Part shown: positions 18,424 to 42,559 of the stretch, one piece after another | Layout of the letters: each line of letters begins with the position of its first letter | How positions within the stretch are numbered: the first letter of the stretch is position 1 | Origin: Phoenix dactylifera | Lineage: Eukaryota > Streptophyta > Magnoliopsida > Arecales > Arecaceae | DNA: 64,000 bases | Direction of reading: 5' to 3' | NCBI RefSeq assembly: GCF_009389715.1 | Contig: NC_052404.1 | Coordinates: forward strand, 7,648,745-7,712,744 | The notes under the pieces: model-generated | What the model was told of the DNA's origin: nothing | The model's database searches: none | What the model saw: only the letters and a program-made list of their open reading frames with translations | Made by a program: the position numbers and the translations under genes

Positions 18424-18809
18424 GAATCTTACGGCTGGCACGTATTCGAACTACCCATGTCGGTAGACCTTGCACGTCAATTGCAAGCTAACGGCAGGAA
18501 CGTAGAGAGGGACATAAAACTTTACGACCGCAGGTTCAAGTCGACTAACCTAGACCAGCGATACTGACAAATCCAATCTGTTCAAAACAAATATAATTTT
18601 TCAGTTCTGTCTGGTCTTACTTTATTTTTTTATTTTTCAAAAGAAATCCATTTTTTTATTTTTTATTTTTAAATATAAAATATATTTGATGTAATCAATT
18701 ATTTTATAAATATGATCTCCATGGCCTACATGATGATAGTGATGGTAAAGATAATCAATGCTATAGTGATGGTGTTAATAGTGGAGATGAATGTTGGTGA
18801 CGCGGCGAT

Positions 18810-19090
18810 GTAGAAAGAAGAAGTTTCTTTCCCTCGATTACAAGAAGTTCCTTTTCGAAGAACTACTGAAGCATCAACAAGAAAGCTCTTCTGTAGAAAA
18901 GTACACCGTCCGATTCCATGAGTTGATGATTCGCAGCAACCTCATAGAGACGGAGCGATAGTCCCTAACTTGGTACCAATCCGGGCTGAGGGACGACATC
19001 AAAAAGGAGCTGATGACGACGCGTATCTTTAGTCTAGAGGAGGCATACCAACTTGTGTATTTTCATATCCACATTATTGATGATGCATGG
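18810..19090 (+). mobile_element. Gypsy-type gag fossil, copy in unit A
   Basis: This is the counterpart of the gag-like stretch at 28,198-28,480 and is part of the duplicated unit. Broken, with several breaks. No LTRs or other parts of an element adjoin it, so it predates the duplication as a fragment. Confidence 0.5.
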
Positions 19091-19148
19091 CATCAATAAT
19101 GTGGGTATGATGGCAATGATGATGATGGTAATACAGTGGAGGCTCTAG

Positions 19149-19676
19149 TAGAGACGACAATTTATGATTTGAGCCGTCAACTTGATTTGCGAACAATCTG
19201 TTTTAAGCAAGTTTGGGTTTAATATAAATAGGTTTAAATTATAAATGGACTAATTCGTCTAAACTTATTTATTAATTGGGTTGGGTTCATGTTTAAACTT
19301 TTGACCTATTTAACTTATTTAATAATTGGGTCAGGTCATAATCCGATCCATCTAACCTGTTTAAAATATGTTTAACCAGTTTAAAACCCGCTCAATCTGT
19401 TTATAACCTGTTTAACTCAACCCGCTTAACATGTTTAATTTATTTAAATCTATTTAATCAGTTAAAAACCTATCTAATTCGTTTAACCTGACTTGATTTA
19501 TTTAATAAATGAGTTATGTGGACTGGATCGGATTATCTTTTTAATAGATAGGTCGGATTTAGATTTAAAATTTTGATCTATTTAATAAATAGATCGTTTT
19601 GGGTTGATAAAATTTTGGTCTAATCTACATTTAACTCGATCATATCTGACTTGACTCGATCCAATTGTCCCCTCTA
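19149..19676. mobile_element. hAT-like MITE, 528 bp (unit A copy)
   Basis: Terminal inverted repeats tagagacgacaatt and (from the right end) tagaggggacaatt are flanked by a degenerate 8-bp duplication, ggctctag and agctttag. The interior is the 'cctgtttaac'-rich type shared with 13,982-14,460. Unit B holds the allelic copy at 28,531-29,059 with the same flanks, so insertion came before the tandem duplication. Confidence 0.75.
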
Positions 19677-20092
19677 AGCTTTAGGGGGGGCGACAATATG
19701 TGCAGATGGTGGCAAAGATTATAATGGTTGTCGTAGCAACATCGTAGTCGTTATGGTATAGACAATGATGACTAATTATGGTCTTTTTCAAAATAATAAG
19801 AATGATAGTCGTAGCACCAGAAAAATTGTATTGGTGAGGTATAAGTTTTTTATTTTAAACTTAGCAAAATTAATATTTATTATTGTTATTTAAAATATTT
19901 TTAAATAATAAAAATTAGAATATTTTATGCCAGTTCTTATAATTTATTTTATAAATAATAAAAATAATAATAATAATAATGATACCAAACAGCCGTTAAT
20001 CTTGAACGATCCGTTAACCGGTATTGGAGGTCCAGGCGGGAGGGCTCCAAAGTTGTAGCCTTTTCTTTACTTTCCAAAAATATCCCTTTCAC

Positions 20093-20253
20093 GAACATTC
20101 CCGGAACCGTCCTGCAACCGCTCGATCCAACACATCCAACACGTGTACGGTACATCCCAAACCACCGTGAAAAGCTACAGACAAAATAATCCATCTTTCC
20201 GCATTTTCAATTATACGGTGGGCCCTCCCGCTCCTCCTCCCCGCGGTTATTTA
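20093..20253 (+). promoter_or_regulatory. Promoter of GolS copy A: HSE-like, G-box/ABRE and TATA-like sites
   Basis: A heat-shock-element half pair gaacattc (GAAnnTTC) lies at 20,093-20,100, with a near third unit ggaa just after. A G-box/ABRE core CACGTG within acacgtgt lies at 20,140-20,145, and a TATA-like ttattta at 20,247-20,253. All sit 180-340 bp before the start codon and are kept in copy B. Galactinol synthases are known to respond to heat-shock factors, ABA, drought and cold. The link here is an inference from motifs only. Confidence 0.5.
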
Positions 20254-20431
20254 TGACCCCCGAATCCCCCACTTTGAAAGGACACACAGCTCACAAGTTC
20301 CCCGATCCCTTCGAGTTCTTACTACTGCTTCTCTGATCTACTAAAGCTGTCAAGCTTTCTCTCTTTTGTTCGTTCTTCCCGAGCCTCCCCCTCCTCCTCT
20401 TTTCTTTAGTTCTCTTCGTTCGTTTTCTGCG

Positions 20432-21797
20432 ATGGCGCCAGAGATCGTCAGGAAGCTGGCGGCGATGGCCGGCCGATATGGAAAGCCGGCGGCGAAGACG
20501 CAGGCCAGGAGGGCGTACGTGACGTTCCTCGCCGGAGACGGCGATTATTGGAAGGGCGTGGTGGGGCTGGCCAAGGGTTTGAGGAAGGTGAGGTCGGCGT
20601 ACCAGCTGGTGGTGGCGGTCCTGCCGGACGTGCCGGAGGACCACCGCCGGATCCTCCGCTCCCAGGGCTGCCTCGTCCGCGAGATCGAGCCCGTCTACCC
20701 TCCTGAGAACCAGACCCAGTTCGCCATGGCTTACTACGTAATCAACTACTCCAAGCTCCGTATCTGGGAGGTAATCTCACCGCCTCTTCTCCGTCCTTTT
20801 GGCACGTGATATGGGCTGCCGCGTTGCATGCGTCCCTCGTGGCATTTTCGTAATAAAAACAGAATCTTGTAGCCTACGACGACTGTCTTATTCTGAATAT
20901 GGTATTGGTATATGGTGTGCAGTTCGTGGAGTACCAGAAGATGATATACCTGGACGCGGATATCCAGGTATATGATAACATCGACCACCTCTTCGACCTC
21001 CCGGATGGAAACTTCTATGCGGTGATGGATTGCTTCTGCGAGAAGACGTGGAGTCACACGCCGCAGTACCAGATCGGGTACTGCCAGCAGTGCCCGGATA
21101 AGGTATCCTGGCCGGAGGACAAGCTGGGTCCCCCTCCGGCGCTCTACTTCAACGCCGGAATGTTCGTCCACGAGCCCAGCCTCGCCACCGCCGAGTGTCT
21201 TCTCAAGACCCTCAAGTCCACTACCCCCACCTCTTTTGCGGAACAGGTAATCCCGGACTCCTTTTTCGTCTATTACGCAAATCGCAAGGGCTTTTGTGTG
21301 AATTGGTACGAATTTTTATATATTTTCTGGGTGCAGGACTTTTTGAACATGTTCTTTAAGGATATTTACAAGCCGATCGCTGGGGTTTACAATTTGGTCC
21401 TCGCGATGCTGTGGAGGCACCCGGAGAACGTGGAGCTGGAAAAGCTCAAGGTGGTCCACTACTGCGCTGCGGTACGTTTGATGAATTCCTGACCGTCTGA
21501 TAAATCTAATGGTTGTTGCTTTGAGCTTCGCGCTGATGATGATGGGTGAATTTTATTTTTTATTTTTGGATGCAGGGTTCGAAGCCGTGGAGGTACACCG
21601 GGAAGGAGGCAAACATGGACCGGGAGGACATCAAGATGCTGGTGAAGAAGTGGTGGGATATTTATAACGACGAGTCGCTGGACTACAAGGGGCCGGCGGT
21701 GGTGGAGGTGGCGCAGGATGAGTTGAAGCAGCCACTCCTGGCGGTGCTGTCGGAGGCTGGGGTAGTGCATTACGTCACTGCGCCCTCGGCCGCATGA
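20432..21797 (+). CDS. GolS: Galactinol synthase, copy A
   Basis: Four exons, 20432-20770, 20923-21246, 21337-21471 and 21576-21797, joined at GT-AG sites in phase, encode 339 aa. The enzyme (GT8 family, Mn-dependent, cytosolic) moves galactose from UDP-galactose to myo-inositol, giving galactinol for raffinose-family oligosaccharides. The sequence shows AYVTFLAGDGDYWKGVVGLA near residue 28, the metal-binding DxD in YLDADIQVYD (D124, D126), the FNAGMFVHEP motif, and HYCAAGSKPW (H262 to W271). It ends in APSAA, the C-terminal pentapeptide typical of plant galactinol synthases. Length and exon pattern are normal and no lesion is seen. Exons are GC-rich against AT-rich surroundings. Compared with copy B I count 7 base differences in the coding sequence and 3 amino-acid differences (C/S in the LATAE[C/S]LLK context, D/N in KWW[D/N]IYN, V/A in PA[V/A]VEV). 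Confidence 0.97.
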
Positions 21798-22733
21798 CGT
21801 GGAAAATGGTGGAAGTGGATGTAGGTGCAGGGTTGAGCCGCACTTTCCATTTTATATCTCTTTTGGAAAAATAGGATGTTTTTTGTATAGAATATGCTTT
21901 GTGCATTGTGCAGTGAAGCTCGAGTCACTGTGAACATGTGTAATTGATACATAACATATGTTTGTATGTAATAGATTGATACATAACATATGTTCGTATG
22001 TAATGGATTGACAAAAGAAAAGAAAAAAAAATGGTACAACTAATTTTCTTTGATGGTGCAATCAATGATCTTCTTTTCTTTTGGGCAGACTGGGTAATGA
22101 ATGAGCTTTGTTAACAATTTGGAGTTCATGGTGTATGTTATGATCTCCCTTCTCTGATTTAAAATTTATGCGGAAGCGCTGCTCTCAATGAATGTTAATG
22201 ATTTGCACGGATCCTTTGGCCTGAAGCCATGTACAGTATGAGTGATTATAAGTCGTAAGGAGTGATTATTATGAGATTTACTAGAACTTAGGGGGACTGT
22301 GGATTCTATGATTCCCATCTGGGAGGTGATCATCCCTGATGTATATTTTAATCCATTCTTTTCTTTTCCTTCGCCAGGGATCCTTCTTAGTTCTCGCCAC
22401 AAAACATTAGAAACAAACCTTCCATCACAGTTGGTAACTGACTATAACTAAAAACACCGGAATTTTAGTTTTGAACTTGTCACAAATAGTTTTGGAGAAC
22501 AGTGCCAAAACAATGATTCTACCAACTGGCTTTGCCCCAAACTGCTATTTGTTTAGGTGCTAATCCTGTTTGCTAAAGATCGTCTATATGATAATATAAC
22601 CAACAATTGTTAGTTTCACCAAAGGAAAAACCAAAAAAGCAAGGGTTAGATGCATGCAAGGTTGCAACCGGTGAAATCGTTTGATAAGTGTAATTTTTCT
22701 AATGTCCACTATATGTTCATCTATGATTCATGG
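21798..22733. other. 3' flank of GolS copy A
   Basis: It holds the 3' UTR (polyadenylation site not fixed) and a short direct repeat, gattgatacataacatatgt, near 21,945-22,010. It is nearly identical to 31,172-32,113 in unit B. No further gene is seen. The stretch ends at the 5-bp target site catgg of the LTR element. Confidence 0.6.
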
Positions 22734-25700
22734 TGATGGGGGGCGAAATGGATCGTCCAACCCACAGCTAAAAAGCCGCTCAGTTTTGGCCCAACAAATG
22801 TCAGCACCGATCGGTTGAATCCTCGGTCCGGCCTAGAATCAGCACGATCTCGAACTCCACCAAAAGCTTCATCGGCCTCGGATATTCACTGACTCACCCA
22901 ACCAAGTTTGGGGCATCTCCAATGTTCGCCGACCTGCCCCGACCGAGCTCGGGGCGCCCACTTCAGTAGCACGCCTCGGCCCTCGAGCTCGGGGCGCTCC
23001 ACCAAGTACACCTCGGGATCCGAGGAACCGAGCTACCCTCAGCACATGTCCAACCGACCTCGCCAAACACATATGAACACGCCTGCTTTTTGTTCGTAGG
23101 ATAACTCTTGCCTTGCCCCTTTGCGACGTGGATGCGACGACTCTTTCCTTTGAATGAAAGACTGGCGGGATCGGCCCATATCCTTGCTTTTCTATCAATT
23201 TCTAATTCCGATCTTCCCCCCCAATCTGATATTATAGTGCTGGTATAGACAGAAATTCCGTTATTGTCCAATTATTAACGGTAGTAAATACCGGGACTAA
23301 CCTCTCAAAAGGTTCGGCCTCGCCAACAACCGCGCCCATGTGTGCACCCACGCCCTCCTACGTGGCCGTACATTACAACGCCATTACACCACGCTTTGGT
23401 AGCTGGCCCTCGACAGTCAAAGGACAACACCACGACTACTCCGGTCATACCCTGCTACGACTGTCAACACCTTATCGTTCTTGAGAATGGACAGCACCAC
23501 ATGCTACCGGCCAGCCTTAGCTGTGCGCCATTCGACTTAGAGCCACGCCCCCTCTCTTGATGAGGGCGAACAATGCCTCTACTACCTGGGCCTCTCTACC
23601 GGGACTATAAATAGCCCGGTCAGGTAACTTCTAAGGAACGTTTTGGCTAGACTAAATTTACCCAACTTTAACTTAACTGTAGGAGGGCCCTCACCGGAAA
23701 CACCGGTGAGGCTTTGTGCATATTCGCCATCACCGCCGCACGGGAGGTGGCCCCCGTCTTCTTCCTCCAATCATCGGCGGCTCCCTCGACTCCACCGGCG
23801 TGGTGACCCTTGGGCCAAATTCGAACCACAATATTTCTGGCGCTTTTGTAGTCTGAGTCGTGACCACAAGGATAATGAGTCGGAGAGCCCCAAACGCGTC
23901 GAGCGGCCGGAAATCAGCGCTCGACTGCTCCCTCCAAAGTCCACCCCCTGCACCGCATGCACCGGCGGACCAAATTTTTCAGGTCCAGACTCCAGCCTAA
24001 GCAGTTTTATCTGCTCGCCCAGCAAGTCCAAGCTCTTGCCGTGGTTATTCAGATCCTTCATCCGGCCGGAGCTTCATCGATTGTCAAACTCGACAGGAAA
24101 GTCGAGAAAGCAGGGCGGCAAATCCAGATGCTTTGGGATCAGGCTACAAAACTCCGCGATGAGCGTTATCGATCGAGGAGCAGGTCCCCTCGGAGGTCTG
24201 GAAGGCGTGTCTCCCTCCGAAGTTTCGAGAAGTACACTCCTCTCATGTCCTTTCGGACCGAGATCCTCACGAAAATTGAGGATTGCGGCTATCTCCGATC
24301 TCCACCAAAGATGCGACCGTCCAAGTCACGGAAGCATTTGGATAAATACTGCCGCTTCCGTAGGGACCACGATCATAACATGGAGGATTGTTACTAGCTC
24401 CGTGATAAGATTGAAGTGATCGTTCGCCAAGGCCTGCTGAGCCGATTCGTCGGTGGACCAACTGACAGGGTGGAGTTCGATAGACAGACTTCAAGGCCAT
24501 CTAATGGGCCCGACGACAGTCGCCCCAGCGAAGGCACAATCAATGCCCCATGCACATCCTATACGTTAATGCTGCCCTGGCTCCAAGGGGCCGGAAAGAG
24601 GCCGCACTCTCATTGGCCCGGGACTAGCAACTCGAGATGTAAATTACTCCTCTTGGAAAGGACCTTAGCCCCTCCAGGTCAGGGCTTTCTTTTTCCGGAC
24701 TATGTTAATTAATGAAGTTACCCTCTGGGACTTTTCCAAGGCATCTCTGAAACGCCCTAGTGGGCTCGACACACTCTGTATGCCCTGGCAGCACAAGTTA
24801 TATACCGATAAATCTATAAAGTCACCCATTTGAGCTCGCCTCGGGGACTTAGCGAGAGTCCAAGGGCCTCACAACTGCAGGTTCTATTTACAAAGTCATC
24901 CCTCGAACTCAGCTCGGAATGCCCTGCGGCATCAACGGGGAGCCAAGAAAGAGCACCCCCATCCGCAGAATCCTGCAAATACGCCCATGATTTGAGTGGG
25001 GGGCATCTACAAGTCATCCCTCAAGCTCGGCTCGGTATGTCCTACGACATCAATGGGGAGCCAAGAAAGAGCACCCCCGTCCGCAGGATCCTACAAGTAC
25101 GCCCCTGATCTGAGTGGGGGGCATCTACAAAGTCATCTCTCGAGCTCGGCTCGGGATGCCCTGCAGCATCAACGGGGAGTCAAGGAAGAGCACCCCCGTC
25201 CAAAGGATCCTACAAATACGCCCCTGATCTGAGTGGAGGGTATCTACAAAGTCATCCCTCGAGCTCGGCTCGAGATGCCCTGCGGCATCAATGGAGAGCC
25301 AAGGAAGAGCACCTCCATCGGCAGGATCCTACAAATACGCCCCTAATCTGAGTGGGGGGCATCTACAAAGTCATCCCTCGAGCTCGGCTCAAGATGCCCT
25401 ACAGCATCAACGGGGAGCCAAAGAAGAGCACCCCCGTTCGCAGGATCCTACAAATACGCCTCGATCTAAGTGGGGGGCACTACAAAGTCATCCCTCGAAT
25501 TCGGCTCGAGATGCCCTGCGGCATCAATGGGGAGCCAAGGAAGAGCACCCTCGTCCATAGGATTCTGCAAGTACGTCCCTAATCTGAGTGGGGGGCATCT
25601 ACAAAGTTGTCTCTTGAGCTCGGCTCGGCTCGGAAAGTCGTCGGGCACTTGCAGACTTCATTACGTCTGAGAGGTGCGGGTTATCGCCGTTATTGTGCGT

Positions 25701-27295
25701 CCGCCTCGGGGCCAGCTATTGAATGAGGTATTTTCACTCGAAATCCCCCTCTCCAAGAAACTGATAAACTCGATATCGATCACGAGCCTCAGAGCTTCCG
25801 GTACTGCAGGAATCTACCACAACGTCCCTTGAATTAAATTCGAGACGTCCGACCTTATATCGATCGCACACCGAAGGCATCTCCCCTGATTACTATTGCG
25901 ATAGGAGCGAATCGCGCGAGCTCAGCTTGAAAAGCTCGACAATCGCGGTACTTGCCCATAAGAGCGCCTCCTTCGAGCTCGACTCGGGACGCCCGGGAGC
26001 TAAAGAACCCCGCAACTGCATGGTTTGCTCTACCTTCGGGGGGATTCCTACTCTCTGGTGAACGCTCATCTCCGAGCTCACCCCTATTCCCCAGCTGGCG
26101 TCGACCCTCGGACAAGCTTCTATCCTTAAGCTAGTCTCCAGTCGGTTTCTTTTTCCTCCGACTTCGCCCTCCTGGGCAGGGCTTAAAGTGGCCCACGATG
26201 TTGGACAAAGAGCTACAAGCTCGTCCTATGGGAGGGTTATCTCCGAATTGGAGGTATATGCTGTGCTCAAGGACTTCGGCAAATGCCAAACACGGCTCCC
26301 GCTATGCGGGATAGGCTGGGACCTAAGTTACGTAGTTCGGATTTCGATATCCAAGCTTGAAGCGGGACGAGCTCAAATACTTGATCAAAGGCGCAATATG
26401 CTGAAAGAAATGCAGACTTCATTGATGATAAATTAGATCGTCCAGCCCACAGCTAAAAGGCCACCCAGTTTTGGCCCAATAAACGCCAGTACCGACCGGT
26501 TGAATCCTCGGCCCGGCCTAGAATCTGCTCGACCTCGGACTCCGCCAAAAGCTCCATAGGCCTCGGATATTTACCGACTCGCCCGACCAAGTTCGGGGCG
26601 TCTCCAATGTTCGCTGACCCGCCCCGACCAAACTTGGGGCGCTCACTTCAGTAGCACGCCCTGACCCTCGAGCTCGGGGCGCTCCATCGAGTACATCTCG
26701 GAACCCTGGGAGCCGAGCTATCCTCAGCATCCGTCCAGCCGACCTCGCCAAACGCATGATGCGACCTCTCAATGGGTTCGGCCTCGCCAACAACTGCGCC
26801 CATGTGTGTACCCACGCCCTCCTACGTGGCCGTACATTACATCGCCTCTACGCCACGCTTCGATAGCTGGCCCTCGATAGTCAAAGGACAACACCACGAC
26901 TACTTCGGCCATACCTTGCTACGACTGTCAACATCTTACCGTTCTTGAGAACGGACAGCACCACATGCCACCGGCCAGCCTTAGCTGCGCGCCATTCGGC
27001 TCAAAGCCACGCCCCCTCTTATGATGAGGGCGGACAATGCCTCTGCCACCTGGGCCTCTCAACCGGAGCTATAAATAGCCTAGTCAGGTACTTCTAAAGG
27101 ACTTTTTGGCTGGACCAAATTTACCCCACTCTAACTTGACCGTCGAAGGGCCATTGCTGGAAACACCCGTGAGACTTTGTGCACGTCCGCCGTTGCCGCC
27201 GCGCAGGAGGTGGCTTCTATCTTTTTCCTCCAATCATCGATGGTCCTTCGACTCCACCGGCGTGGTCACCCTCGGGCCAAATTCGAACCACAACA
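22734..27295 (+). mobile_element. Gypsy-type LTR element without recognisable pol (fossil), inserted in unit A
   Basis: The 5' LTR is about 22,734-23,833 and the 3' LTR about 26,423-27,295; they are of unequal length. The 5-bp target duplication catgg lies at 22,729-22,733 and 27,296-27,300. The interior has a gag-like region at about 23,960-24,420, with a zinc-knuckle-like KYCRFRRDHDHNMEDCY typical of plant Gypsy gag. A GC-rich tandem array follows. I recognise no protease, reverse transcriptase or integrase, so it resembles a non-autonomous, gag-only Gypsy derivative. It is broken, with several breaks. Over the first 225 or so aligned LTR bases I counted about 30 differences, mostly transitions. 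That suggests an age of some million years, with methylation likely inflating the figure. Confidence 0.85.
24877..25630. repeat. Tandem array inside the LTR element, 118-119 bp period, about 6.5 units
   Basis: The landmark gagtggggggcatctacaaa and its variants begin at 24,994, 25,112, 25,231, 25,350, 25,468 and 25,586. An earlier partial unit starts near 24,877. Each unit includes ctcgagctcggctcg, cggcatcaa and gagcaccccc. The period is not a multiple of three, so the array is not a protein repeat. Confidence 0.9.
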
Positions 27296-28197
27296 CATGG
27301 CATGAGCAATATTTGTGCACCATTGACGACCAAATTAATCAATAAGAGTATATATATATTTCTAAAGAAAAAAATTTTGTGGATTAGAGGTTGGCAAGAA
27401 TTTTTTGCTATGGTCAACAGATTGTGATTGACTCAAGCTAGTGACACGCGTCCAAACCAACTAGTCTTTGCGAGGTCTAACAGACAGTCGAGTGGCACGT
27501 GGAAAAGATCACCGACCTGACATCATTCAGTAAGAAGCACGACACGCAGGCTCTTTTTTGTCTACGTGCCCACTTCCCGTTCGTGCTTGCCGCCACATCG
27601 TACGTGTCATCCGACGGTGTGCGAAAGCTAAAGGGGTAAAGTGCACCAAGAGTACGTTTTCTTTTGCCGCTTTTGGTCGCCCATCACGACTGGGCCCCAC
27701 GAGCTCTCTTGGTCGGTCGGATTTTGTAATGATATTCGGAGTCTGAATTTTGCGGTCTTGCGAGCCTGGCGACCGCCGACTCGTCGAGTAACGGTATATT
27801 CGGAATCTTGCGGCTGGCACGTATTCGAACCACCCATGTCGGTAGACCTTGCACGTCATTTGCAAGCTAACGGCAGGAACGTAGAGAGGGACATAAAACT
27901 TTGCGACCGCAGGTTCAAGTCGACTAACCTAGACCAGCGATACTGACAAATCCAATCTGTTCAAAACAAATATAATTTTTCAGTTATGTCTTGTCTTACT
28001 TTATTTTTTTATTTTTCAAAAAATATCTATTTTTTTTATTTTTTCATTTTTAAATATAAAATAGATTTGATGTAATCAATTATTTTGAATGTATAAATAT
28101 GATCATCATGGTCTACATGATGATAGTGATGGTAAAGATAATCGATGCTATAGTGATGGTGACAATAATGATGATGAATATTGGTGACGCGGTGATA

Positions 28198-28480
28198 TGG
28201 AAGGAGAAGTTTTTTTCTCTTGATTATAAGGAGACCCTTTTCGAAAAACTATTGAAGCATCGACAAAGAAGCTTTTCCGTAGAAAAGTACATCTTCCGAT
28301 TCCATGAGTTGATGCTTCGCAGCAACCTTATGGAGACGAAGCGACAGTCCCTAACTAAGTACCGATTCGAGCTGAGGGACGATATCAAAAAGGAGCTAAT
28401 GACGACGCATATCTTCAGTCTAGAGGAGGCATACCAACTTATGTATTTTCATATCCACATTATTGATGATGGCATCAATA
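28198..28480 (+). mobile_element. Gypsy-type gag fossil, copy in unit B
   Basis: The open stretch contains FSVEKYIFRFHELMLRSNLM and ELRDDIKKELMT, which match the pattern of plant Ty3/Gypsy gag proteins. It is an isolated fragment with no LTRs, pol or env nearby. A relic that predates the tandem duplication. Confidence 0.55.
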
Positions 28481-28530
28481 ATGTGGGTATGATGGCAACG
28501 ATGATGGTGGTAATACAGTGGAGGCTCTAG

Positions 28531-29059
28531 TAGAGATGACAATATATGATTTGACCCATCAACTTGATTCGTGAACAATCTGTTTTAAGCAAGTTTGGGT
28601 TTGATATAAATGGGTTTAAATTGTAGATAGACTAATTCGTTTAAACTTATTTATTAAATGGGTTGGGTTCATGTTTAAACTTTTGACCTATTTAACTTAT
28701 TTAATAATTGGATCGGGTCATAATCCGATCCATCTAACCTGTTTAAAATATGTTTAACCAGTTTAAAACCTGCTCAATCTGTTTATGACCTGTTTAACTC
28801 AACCCGCTTAACATGTTTAATTTATTTAAATCTATTTAATCTGTTAAAATCCTATCTAATCCATTTAACTTGATTTGATTTATTTTAATAAATGAGTTAT
28901 GTGGATTAGATCGGATTATCTGTTTAATAGATAGGTCGGATTTAGATTTAAAATTTTGATCTATATAATAAATCGATCGTTTTGAGTTGATAAAATTTTG
29001 GCCTAATCTACAATTAACTCGATTATATCTTACCCGACTCGGTCCAATTGCCACCTCTA
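28531..29059. mobile_element. hAT-like MITE, 529 bp (unit B copy)
   Basis: Allelic to the unit A copy, with the same flanking pair ggctctag and agctttag and the same ends (tagagatgacaat at the left, caattgccacctcta at the right). In the first 150 bases or so it differs from the A copy at about 12-13 positions. Confidence 0.75.
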
Positions 29060-29461
29060 AGCTTTAGTGGGGGTGACAATATGCGCAGATGGTGGTGGCA
29101 ACGACTATAACGGTTGTCATAGCAATATTGTAGTGGTTATGGTATAGATAATGATGACTAACTATGGTTTTTTTCAAAATAATAGGAATGGTGGTCGAGA
29201 AAAAATGTATTAGTGTGATATAAGTTTTCTATTTTAAACTTAGTAAAATTAATATTAATTTATATTATTTAAAATATTTTTAAATAATAAAAATTAGAAT
29301 ATTTTATGCCGGTTTCTATAATTTTATTTTATAAATAATAATAATAATAATACCAAACAAGCCTTTAATCTCGAACGGTCCGTTAACCGGTATTGGAGGT
29401 CCAGGCGGGAGGGCTCCAAAGTTGTAGCGTTTTCTTTACTTTCCAAAAATATCCCTTTCAC

Positions 29462-29628
29462 GAACATTCCCGGAACCCTCCTGCAACCGCTCGATCCAAC
29501 GCATCCAACACGTGTACGGTACACATCCCAAACCACCGTGAAAAGCTACAGACAAAATAATCCATCTTTCCGCATTTTCAACTATACAGTGGGCCCTCCC
29601 GCTCCTCCCCCCCCCCGCGGTTATTTAA
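29462..29628 (+). promoter_or_regulatory. Promoter of GolS copy B: HSE-like, G-box/ABRE and TATA-like sites
   Basis: gaacattc lies at 29,462-29,469, CACGTG at 29,509-29,514 and ttatttaa at 29,621-29,628, in the same order and nearly the same spacing as in copy A. The TATA-like box is ttatttaa here and ttatttat in A. A longer C run (about 10) lies just before it. Whether the two copies are expressed alike cannot be told from sequence. Confidence 0.5.
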
Positions 29629-29805
29629 GACCCCCCAATCCCCCACTTTGAAAGGACTCACAACTCACAAGTTCCCCGATCCCTTCGAGTTCTTACTATT
29701 GCTTCTCTGATCTACTAAAGCTGTCAAGCTTTCCCTCTTTTGTTCGGTCTTCCCGAGCCTCCCCCTCCTCCTCTTTTCTTTAGTTCTCTTCGTTCGTTTT
29801 CTGCG

Positions 29806-31171
29806 ATGGCGCCAGAGATCGTCAGGAAGCTGGCGGCGATGGCCGGCCGATATGGAAAGCCGGCGGCGAAGACGCAGGCCAGGAGGGCGTACGTGACGTT
29901 CCTCGCCGGAGACGGCGATTATTGGAAGGGCGTGGTGGGGCTGGCCAAGGGTTTGAGGAAGGTGAGGTCGGCGTACCAGCTGGTGGTGGCGGTCCTGCCG
30001 GACGTGCCGGAGGACCACCGCCGGATCCTCCGCTCCCAGGGCTGCCTCGTCCGCGAGATCGAGCCCGTCTACCCTCCCGAGAACCAGACCCAGTTCGCCA
30101 TGGCTTACTACGTAATCAACTACTCCAAGCTCCGTATCTGGGAGGTAATCTCACCGCCTCTTCTCCGTCCTTTTGGCACGTGATATGGGCTGCCGCGTTG
30201 CATGCGTCCCTCGTGGCATTTTCGTAATAAAAACAAAATCTTGTAGCCTACGACGACTGTCTTATTCTGAATATGGTATTGGTATATGGTGTGCAGTTCG
30301 TGGAGTACCAGAAGATGATATACCTGGACGCGGATATCCAGGTATATGATAACATCGACCACCTCTTCGACCTCCCGGATGGAAACTTCTATGCGGTGAT
30401 GGATTGCTTCTGCGAGAAGACGTGGAGTCACACGCCGCAGTACCAGATCGGGTACTGCCAGCAGTGCCCGGATAAGGTATCCTGGCCGGAGGACAAGCTG
30501 GGTCCGCCGCCGGCGCTCTACTTCAACGCCGGAATGTTCGTCCACGAGCCCAGCCTCGCCACCGCCGAGTCTCTTCTCAAGACCCTCAAGTCCACTACCC
30601 CCACCTCTTTTGCGGAACAGGTAATCCCGGACTCCTTTTTCGTCTATTACGCAAATCGCAAGGGCTTTTGTGTGAATTGGTACGAATTTTTATATATTTT
30701 CTGGGTGCAGGACTTTTTGAACATGTTCTTTAAGGATATTTACAAGCCGATCGCTGGGGTTTACAATTTGGTCCTCGCGATGCTGTGGAGGCACCCGGAG
30801 AACGTGGAGCTGGAAAAGCTCAAGGTGGTCCACTACTGCGCTGCGGTACGTTTGATGAATTCCTGACCGTCTGATAAATCTAATGGTTGTTGCTTTGAGC
30901 TTCGCGCTGATGATGATGGGTGAATTTTATTTTTTAATTTTGGATGCAGGGTTCGAAGCCGTGGAGGTACACCGGGAAGGAGGCAAACATGGACCGGGAG
31001 GACATCAAGATGCTGGTGAAGAAGTGGTGGAATATTTATAACGACGAGTCGCTGGACTACAAGGGGCCGGCGGCGGTGGAGGTGGCGCAGGATGAGTTGA
31101 AGCAGCCGCTCCTGGCGGTGCTGTCGGAGGCTGGGGTAGTGCATTACGTCACTGCGCCCTCGGCCGCATGA
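29806..31171 (+). CDS. GolS: Galactinol synthase, copy B
   Basis: Exons 29806-30144, 30297-30620, 30711-30845 and 30950-31171 sit exactly 9,374 bp from those of copy A, with identical exon and intron lengths, and encode 339 aa. The DxD motif (D124, D126), HYCAAGSKPW and terminal APSAA are all kept, so it should be an active GT8 galactinol synthase. Intron 1 shows one difference from copy A in 152 bp by eye, so introns are as conserved as exons. Both copies look intact, giving two near-identical enzymes in tandem on the same strand. Confidence 0.97.
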
Positions 31172-32108
31172 CGTGGAAAATGGTGGAAGTGGATGTAGGT
31201 GCAGGGTTGAGCCGCAGTTTCCATTTTATATCTCTTTTGGAAAAATAGGATGTTTTTTGTATAGAATATGTTTTGTGCATTGTGCAGTGAAGCTCAGAGT
31301 CACTGTGAACATGTGTAATTGATACATAACATATGTTTGTATGTAATAGATTGATACATAACATATGTTTGTATGTAATGGATTGACAAAAGAAAAGAAA
31401 AAAAAAAATTGTACAACTAATTTTCTTTGATGGTGCAATCAATGATCTTCTTTTCTTTTGGGCAGACTGGGTAATGAATGAGCTTTGTTAACAATTTGGA
31501 ATTCATGGTGTATGTTATGATCTCCCTTCTCTGATTTAAAATTTATGCGGAAGCGCTGCTCTCAATGAATATTAATGATTTGCACGGATCCTTTGGCCTG
31601 AAGCCATGTACAGTATGAGTGATTATAAGTAGTAAGGAGTGATTATTATGAGGTTTACTAGAACTTAGGGGGACTGTGGATTCTATGATTCCCATCTGGG
31701 ATGTGATCATCCCTGATGTATATTTTAATCCATTCTTATCTTTTCCTTCGCCAGGGATCCTTCTTAGTTCTCGCCACAAAACATTAGAAACAAACCTTCC
31801 ATCACAGTTGGTAACTGACTAACTAAAAACCCCGGAATTTTAGTTTTGAAGTTGTCACAAATAGTTTTGGAGAACAGTGCCAAAACAATGATTCTACCAA
31901 CTGGCTTTGCCCCAAACTGCTATTTGTTTAGGTGCTAATCCTGTTTGCTAAAGATCGTCTATATGATAATATAACCAACAATTGTTAGTTTCACCAAAGG
32001 AAAAACCAAAAAAGCAAGGGTTAGATGCATGCAAGGTTGCAATCGGTGCAATCTAAATTGACGAGAAGTGTAAATTTTTTACTGTCCACTATATGTTCAT
32101 CTATGATT
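31172..32108. other. 3' flank of GolS copy B
   Basis: Counterpart of 21,798-22,728, with the same gatacataacatatgtttgt direct repeat (near 31,320-31,375). The last part (32,041-32,075) differs from A more than the rest. No further gene. Confidence 0.6.
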
Positions 32109-32622
32109 CATGGCATGAGTAATATTTGTGCACCAATGACCACCAAATTAATCAATAAGAGTATATACGTATCTCTAAAGAAATTTTTTTTGTGGATTAG
32201 AGGTTGGCAAGAAATTTTAGCTATGGTCAACAGATTGTGATTGACTCAGGCTAGTGACACGCGTCCAAACCAACTAGTCTTTGCGAGGTCTAACAGACAG
32301 TCGAGTGGCACGTGGAAAAGATCACCGGCCTGACATCATCCAGTAAGAAACACGACACGCAGGTTCTTTTTTGTCTACGTGCTCACTTCCCATTCGTGCT
32401 TGCCGCCACATCGTACGTGTCTTCCGACGGTGTGCGAAAGCTAAAGGGCTAATGTGCACCAAGAGTACGTTTTCTTTTGCCGCTTTTGGTCGCCCATCAC
32501 GACTGGGCCCCACGAGCTCTCTTGGTCGGTCGGATTTTGTAATGATATTCGGAGTCCGAATTTTGCGGTCTTGCGAGCCTGGCGACCGCCGACTCGTCGA
32601 GTAACGGTATATTCGGAATCTT

Positions 32623-42084: not shown

Positions 42085-42559
42085 AGAACGGCAATTTATG
42101 ATTCGACCTGTCAACTCGATCCATAAACAACTTACTTTAAACAGATTTGTGTTTGATATAAATAGATTTGGACCGTGAATGAATCAATCTATCTAAACAT
42201 GTTTATTAAATGAGCTGGGTTTAGATTTAAATTTTTAACTCGTTTAACCTATTTTGACTCGTTTGATAATTGAATCGGATCATAACTCGGCCCTTTTAAC
42301 CTGTTTATGACCTATTTAACCCAACTCACTTAATTTGTTTAATTTGTTTAAATCTATTTAATCCATGAATAACCCATCTAACCCGTTTAATCTATTTAAT
42401 AAACGGCTCATGTGGGTATGGTCGGGTTACTTGTTTAATAAAAAGTTGGATTCAGATTTGACATTTTGATCTATTCAATGAACAAGTCGGATTTGGGTTG
42501 ATACATTTTTGACTCGATCTGCATCCAACCCGACCTATATCCAATCTAATTGCCACCCG
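42085..42559. mobile_element. hAT-like MITE, 475 bp
   Basis: Fourth member of the 'cctgtttaac'-rich family. The left end runs agaacggcaattt and the right end aattgccacccg, flanked by an imperfect 8-bp duplication, taccttaa and taccttct (6 of 8). Non-coding. Confidence 0.65.

Follow-up and report, generated by a model that had tools for sequence, protein, structure and literature searches.

Why should two neighbouring genes remain nearly identical across exons, introns and part of the 3' flank alike, when the promoters, upstream sequences and distal sequences duplicated together with them have diverged? This question is raised by a pair of putative galactinol synthase genes, GolS-A and GolS-B, in a 64,000-nucleotide stretch of the Phoenix dactylifera genome (NC_052404.1, positions 7,648,745 to 7,712,744; hereafter the window, in whose coordinates and on whose forward strand all features below are given). 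The mosaic divergence between the two gene units is real. Judging from the sequence, its low-divergence block is quite probably best explained by one gene-conversion tract of about 2.3 kb, postdating both the duplication and the insertion of a retrotransposon.

Layout and divergence of the GolS units

Self-comparison of the window revealed a tandem pair of units of about 4.8 kb each, aligning 18424-22733 with 27803-32113 and 27296-27809 with 32109-32622. Unit B is contiguous, its main part (27803-32113) continuing into a distal segment (32114-32615), whereas unit A is split in two by a long terminal repeat (LTR) retrotransposon. The main part of unit A (18424-22733), comprising an old transposon sequence, the promoter, GolS-A and its 3' flank, is 94.9% identical to that of unit B over 4,336 columns, and its distal segment (27301-27802) is 95.5% identical to 32109-32622. 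The 7-bp motif GAATCTT is common to all three duplication edges (18424, 27803-27809 and 32616), suggesting that a segment of about 4.8 kb, from the old transposon to the distal piece, would have been tandemly duplicated at this microhomology. The feature delimited in a first-pass annotation of the window ended at 32108, 5 bp before the end of the main part of unit B.

Both genes have open reading frames of 339 codons in four exons, at 20432-20770, 20923-21246, 21337-21471 and 21576-21797 in GolS-A (20432-21797) and at 29806-30144, 30297-30620, 30711-30845 and 30950-31171 in GolS-B (29806-31171). The introns of GolS-A measure 152, 90 and 104 bp, all with GT..AG borders. The GolS-A protein contains a glycosyltransferase family 8 domain (Pfam PF01501, E=1.3e-43). 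This family also includes enzymes other than galactinol synthase; the latter name, given in the first-pass annotation, presumably agrees with the family and is kept here as putative, and we take the APSAA protein ending to be a galactinol synthase hallmark. In its PF01501 match, its length of 339 amino acids and its four exons the protein resembles the galactinol synthases of this family and shows nothing unusual. Directly beyond the stop codon, both units carry a 32-bp tandem repeat in 2.2 copies (21943-22011 and 31318-31386).

Alignment of the two units delimited a low-divergence block at 20374-22667 in A and 29748-32042 in B, with 21 substitutions (10 transitions and 11 transversions) and three indels over 2,292 columns (0.9%), spanning exons and introns as well as 0.87 kb of 3' flank. 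The upstream sequence (18424-20010) differs at 134 of 1,564 positions (8.6%; 97 transitions, 37 transversions), the promoter (20011-20373) at 13 of 363 (3.6%; seven and six) and the distal segment, with the target-site repeat of the retrotransposon counted, at 23 of 507 (4.5%; 12 and 11), while the short interval 22668-22733 holds three transitions and seven transversions in 66 positions. Within the block, the coding sequence contributes four transitions and three transversions over 1,020 bases, the three introns one of each over 346, and the 3' flank five transitions and seven transversions over 868, giving 14 differences in 1,214 for introns and 3' flank together. These counts bear out what the first-pass annotation had reported for the genes (seven differences in 1,020 coding bases, about one in the 152-bp first intron, where we found one, and introns as similar as exons) and for the distal segment (roughly 4-5%). 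Its figure of about 12-13 differences in 150 bases or so of the upstream element was somewhat low, with 15 substitutions in the 139 aligned columns of the last 150 bases of that element (19877-20026), although a few of these flank an 11-bp gap in an AAT repeat and may be alignment noise.

The smooth, uniform divergence that the same annotation had named as evidence against its own reading is not what the units display. A permutation test favoured a single internal low block over a uniform rate in each of three event classes, namely all events, transversions together with indels, and transversions only (p=0.0005 in each case, the floor of 2,000 permutations), and noncoding transversions number 8 in 1,214 positions of the core versus 48 in 2,071 upstream and distal positions (p=2e-4). 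The two homologous copies therefore contain the bounded block of lowered divergence expected of ectopic gene conversion. Differences inside the block are spaced as by chance (longest gap 366 bp, p=0.49), and adding a fifth segment to four brings no gain by the Bayesian information criterion (BIC), whether for all events, for transversions or for transversions plus indels, two segments being best for transitions; the repeated conversion that had been proposed is thus not needed.

Edges of the low-divergence block

Over the whole unit, the best pair of breakpoints was 20290 and 22668 for all events (support 20010-20398 and 22626-22674), 20287 and 22674 for transversions (19998-20491 and 22157-22679), and 20287 and 22253 for transversions plus indels (20263-20449 and 21130-22677), placing the 5' edge within about 0.4 kb. 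The sharp step anticipated at 20.0-20.2 kb does exist, but it seems to merge two: a step in transitions at 20009, which is the edge of the upstream transposon, and the 5' edge of the block itself, best located at 20.28-20.37 kb (support 20.01-20.40 kb). The transversion step is best placed at 20284-20373, beyond the TATA-like box that lies at 20248 upstream of GolS-A, with support reaching back to 19998.

The 3' edge coincides with a cluster of differences, 10 substitutions plus a 5-bp indel within about 36 bp (22668-22702 in A, 32043-32082 in B); from there to the retrotransposon insertion site, about 31 bases are identical. A search across the window for a template of this cluster, using 10-12-mers of the unit B patch, returned only scattered, mostly A/T-rich matches.

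Comparison with an outgroup locus

A search for relatives across the genome (773 Mb, 2,391 contigs) identified four further GolS-like loci, on C3, C176, C4 and C11. The C3 locus (C3:6050630-6061700), which probably derives from a whole-genome duplication, is collinear with the window and carries one GolS gene, matching the window upstream, through GolS and the distal segment, and onward over 33.9-36.6 kb; a single piece, near 33.4-33.6 kb, is inverted. It is almost without the upstream element, the homologous C3 pieces lying 59 bp apart across it. The synonymous substitution rate (Ks, Nei-Gojobori) is 0.386 between GolS-A and C3 and 0.018 between GolS-A and GolS-B. With C3 as outgroup, four of the seven coding changes (four synonymous, three nonsynonymous) fall in A and two in B, one having no polarity call; the amino-acid changes are S to C at codon 205 in A, and D to N at codon 294 and V to A at codon 308 in B.

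Differences from C3 amount to 31% in introns, 33% in the 3' flank, 35% in the distal segment and 38% in the promoter. The introns and 3' flank are hence as far from C3 as are the promoter and distal segment, which argues against constraint or slow mutation as the source of the block and agrees with the earlier contention that purifying selection on the protein is insufficient. This was quantified by comparing A/B with A/C3 differences in columns ungapped in all three sequences, leaving aside the upstream element (most of which C3 lacks), the constrained coding sequence and 5' untranslated region (UTR), and 22668-22733. The ratio was 11:342 in core noncoding DNA versus 31:246 in distal segment plus promoter (p=7e-5), and the distal segment alone, at 20:158, also departs from the core (p=3e-4). 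Merging A/B differences no more than four columns apart, a procedure that also joins independent changes in dense regions such as the upstream element and the LTRs, gave 11:342 versus 26:246 (p=0.001). The odds in the core are 0.255 of those in the non-transposon flanks, so the block would last have been alike at roughly one quarter of the age of the duplication.

Transposon sequences and the two clocks

The retrotransposon in unit A (22734-27295) starts 66 bp past the end of the low-divergence block. It has the features of an LTR retrotransposon insertion, namely a pair of LTRs (22734-23833 and 26430-27295), a CATGG target-site repeat (22729 and 27296) and an empty site in unit B, where a single CATGG stands at 32109. 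Because B keeps this empty site, the element must have entered A after the duplication, or one of two haplotypes before it. Its LTRs differ by 103 transitions and 19 transversions over 866 positions. We considered and rejected an element older than the duplication; the LTRs do differ by 14%, but the excess consists of transitions, and the empty site is kept in B. In a tree of the family the two LTRs are sisters (support 0.925), as expected of one insertion. The tree used 14 of 21 family loci, from 12 distinct places, after seven had been removed by a strand and length filter; these 14 loci differ from the two LTRs by 11.9-16.5% in transitions and 1.3-3.0% in transversions. Transversions are more frequent between the LTRs than in the core (p=4e-5) or in the noncoding part of the core (p=0.003). 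Provided that transposons and genes undergo transversion at like rates, the element probably predates the levelling of the block. The family is large, a first look at the genome giving about 1,500 candidates. The 5' LTR carries about 230 extra bases (approximately 23073-23293) absent from the 3' LTR, and the element contains 6.2 copies of a 119-bp repeat (24889-25628).

The upstream element (18601-20010 in unit A), labelled a miniature inverted-repeat transposable element (MITE) in the first-pass annotation, is old transposon sequence present in both units and belongs to a repeat family for which a first look at the genome gave about 1,050 candidates. In unit B an open frame of 143 amino acids inside it (28099-28527) has a sub-threshold match to a Ty3 capsid domain (PF19259, E=0.00038, below Pfam's cut-off), and the matching stretch of unit A, judged by eye, contains stop codons. 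A partial copy of the repeat at 42298-42511 is 75-77% identical to 19394-19617 and 28776-29000.

Outside the low-divergence block, transversions are nearly equal in the upstream sequence (2.37%), the distal segment (2.17%) and the LTR pair (2.19%). Transitions are unequal, at 6.2% upstream, 11.9% between the LTRs and 2.4% in the distal segment. All cytosine contexts are raised in the transposons (CG 25-28%, CHG 21%, CHH 17%, versus 4-6% in the distal segment), and the excess of transitions is likely to stem from deamination of methylated cytosine. The contrast between the core and the upstream element is thus partly a mutation effect, and we rejected it as sole proof of conversion; the excess of that element over the distal segment consists of transitions, as in the LTRs.

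Gene conversion and alternative explanations

The observations fit a sequence of events in which the duplication would have been followed by the landing of the retrotransposon in unit A, where it separated the distal piece from the 3' flank. At a later time, non-crossover homologous repair would have used one GolS copy as template to overwrite about 2.3 kb of the other, beginning in the 5' UTR region and ending about 0.87 kb beyond the stop codon. This copying would have reset the block to near zero, the promoter, upstream element and distal segment retaining their older divergence. A single such event would suffice, and the retrotransposon may have limited the tract on its 3' side. The A and B sequences do not distinguish the donor copy.

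Several results weigh against this reading. The 3' edge is sharp because of one cluster, that at 22668-22702. When the upstream transposon is left out, the best two-breakpoint fit becomes a high stretch at 22666-27641 and the 5' step is not placed; when the 11-event cluster is dropped too, the breakpoints move to 20375 and 27305, and their support intervals are wide. The three-segment model improves on a uniform rate for transversions by only 2.3 BIC units. Transversions in the distal segment are clustered near its start, a single A/T run accounting for four, and the 396 positions of 27407-27802 contain only three, a core-like value; most of the transversion signal therefore comes from the upstream transposon. 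The noncoding outgroup alignment is gappy, and restricting the outgroup test to transversions leaves 8:157 in core noncoding DNA versus 14:116 in distal segment plus promoter (p=0.073); merged non-transition events give p=0.077 for distal segment plus promoter and p=0.22 for the distal segment alone, each against core noncoding DNA. Synonymous sites, at a Ks of 0.018, are less extreme than the introns. The comparison, moreover, is confined to one genome, so that the case for conversion is good but not closed.

These points bear most directly on an explanation that dispenses with conversion, in which all parts of the units share a single duplication age and the gene has a lower mutation rate or stronger constraint, with higher rates in the surrounding transposons. 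Rate differences do exist here, since both the upstream element and the LTRs show a strong excess of transitions, and the tests limited to transversions and non-transposon DNA are borderline (p=0.07-0.08). The outgroup test on all substitutions nonetheless separates core from flanks, and transversions too are about fourfold lower in the block than in the upstream element. Although it is not beyond doubt that the block is due to neither constraint nor slow mutation, we regard this explanation as unlikely. Conversion of the GolS core, as first proposed, stands as the best-supported reading on all substitutions, with the qualifications that transversions alone fall short and that the flank contrast is in part one of transitions.

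A pair of unequal crossovers, expanding the array to three copies and contracting it again with breakpoints near 20.3 and 22.67 kb, would by reasoning yield an identical final sequence, and plant tandem repeats are described as expanding and contracting by unequal crossover (PMC2686159). This route requires two events, of which no trace is left here, and the genome yielded just two copies with more than 90% identity; we consider it improbable. Least credible of all is an assembly artefact in which polishing made the two cores alike, for although the assembly, if it is the one described in PMC6794320, was polished by Arrow and then by Pilon with short reads, and the same paper describes date palm as highly heterozygous, 21 substitutions and three indels persist evenly spread across the block, and at an original divergence of 4-5% short reads should, by reasoning, place uniquely.

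Discussion

Homogenisation of duplicated genes is already known in plants, and no new mechanism is needed for the GolS pair. In maize P1-wr (PMC2686159), tandem repeats are homogenised by conversion or unequal crossover, several-kb stretches share polymorphisms, and a retroelement lies in the cluster, a setting similar to ours; that system has many copies, whereas GolS has two, and the bz tracts quoted there, at 1-1.5 kb, fall somewhat short of the GolS block of about 2.3 kb. For Arabidopsis RPP8, PMC6771003 infers intergenic conversion in a set of three copies of which two stand in tandem, a case that resembles the GolS pair in involving tandem copies. It differs in that a copy 2 Mb away takes part in much of the sharing, that the tandem copies keep fixed differences, and that population data were available. 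Literature searches for galactinol synthase with gene conversion returned no study of GolS evolution by title, and for galactinol synthase with date palm this pair was in no title among the matches listed.

The GolS pair offers a compact case that can be dated in several ways: by a block measured against an outgroup, by an insertion following the duplication, and by two clocks, one of transitions and one of transversions, which give discordant readings in transposon DNA. It also carries a warning: contrasts between core and flanks of plant duplicates are partly a mutation effect where transposons make up the flanks, and an age estimated for this pair from its genes (Ks 0.018) would be too young. 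A more speculative and rather doubtful proposal is that the retrotransposon acts as a homology barrier, the gene and its 3' flank undergoing concerted evolution to within 66 bp of it and the promoters just beyond the other end diverging freely. If that were true, the two copies of a stress-sugar enzyme would keep one protein while acquiring two controls.

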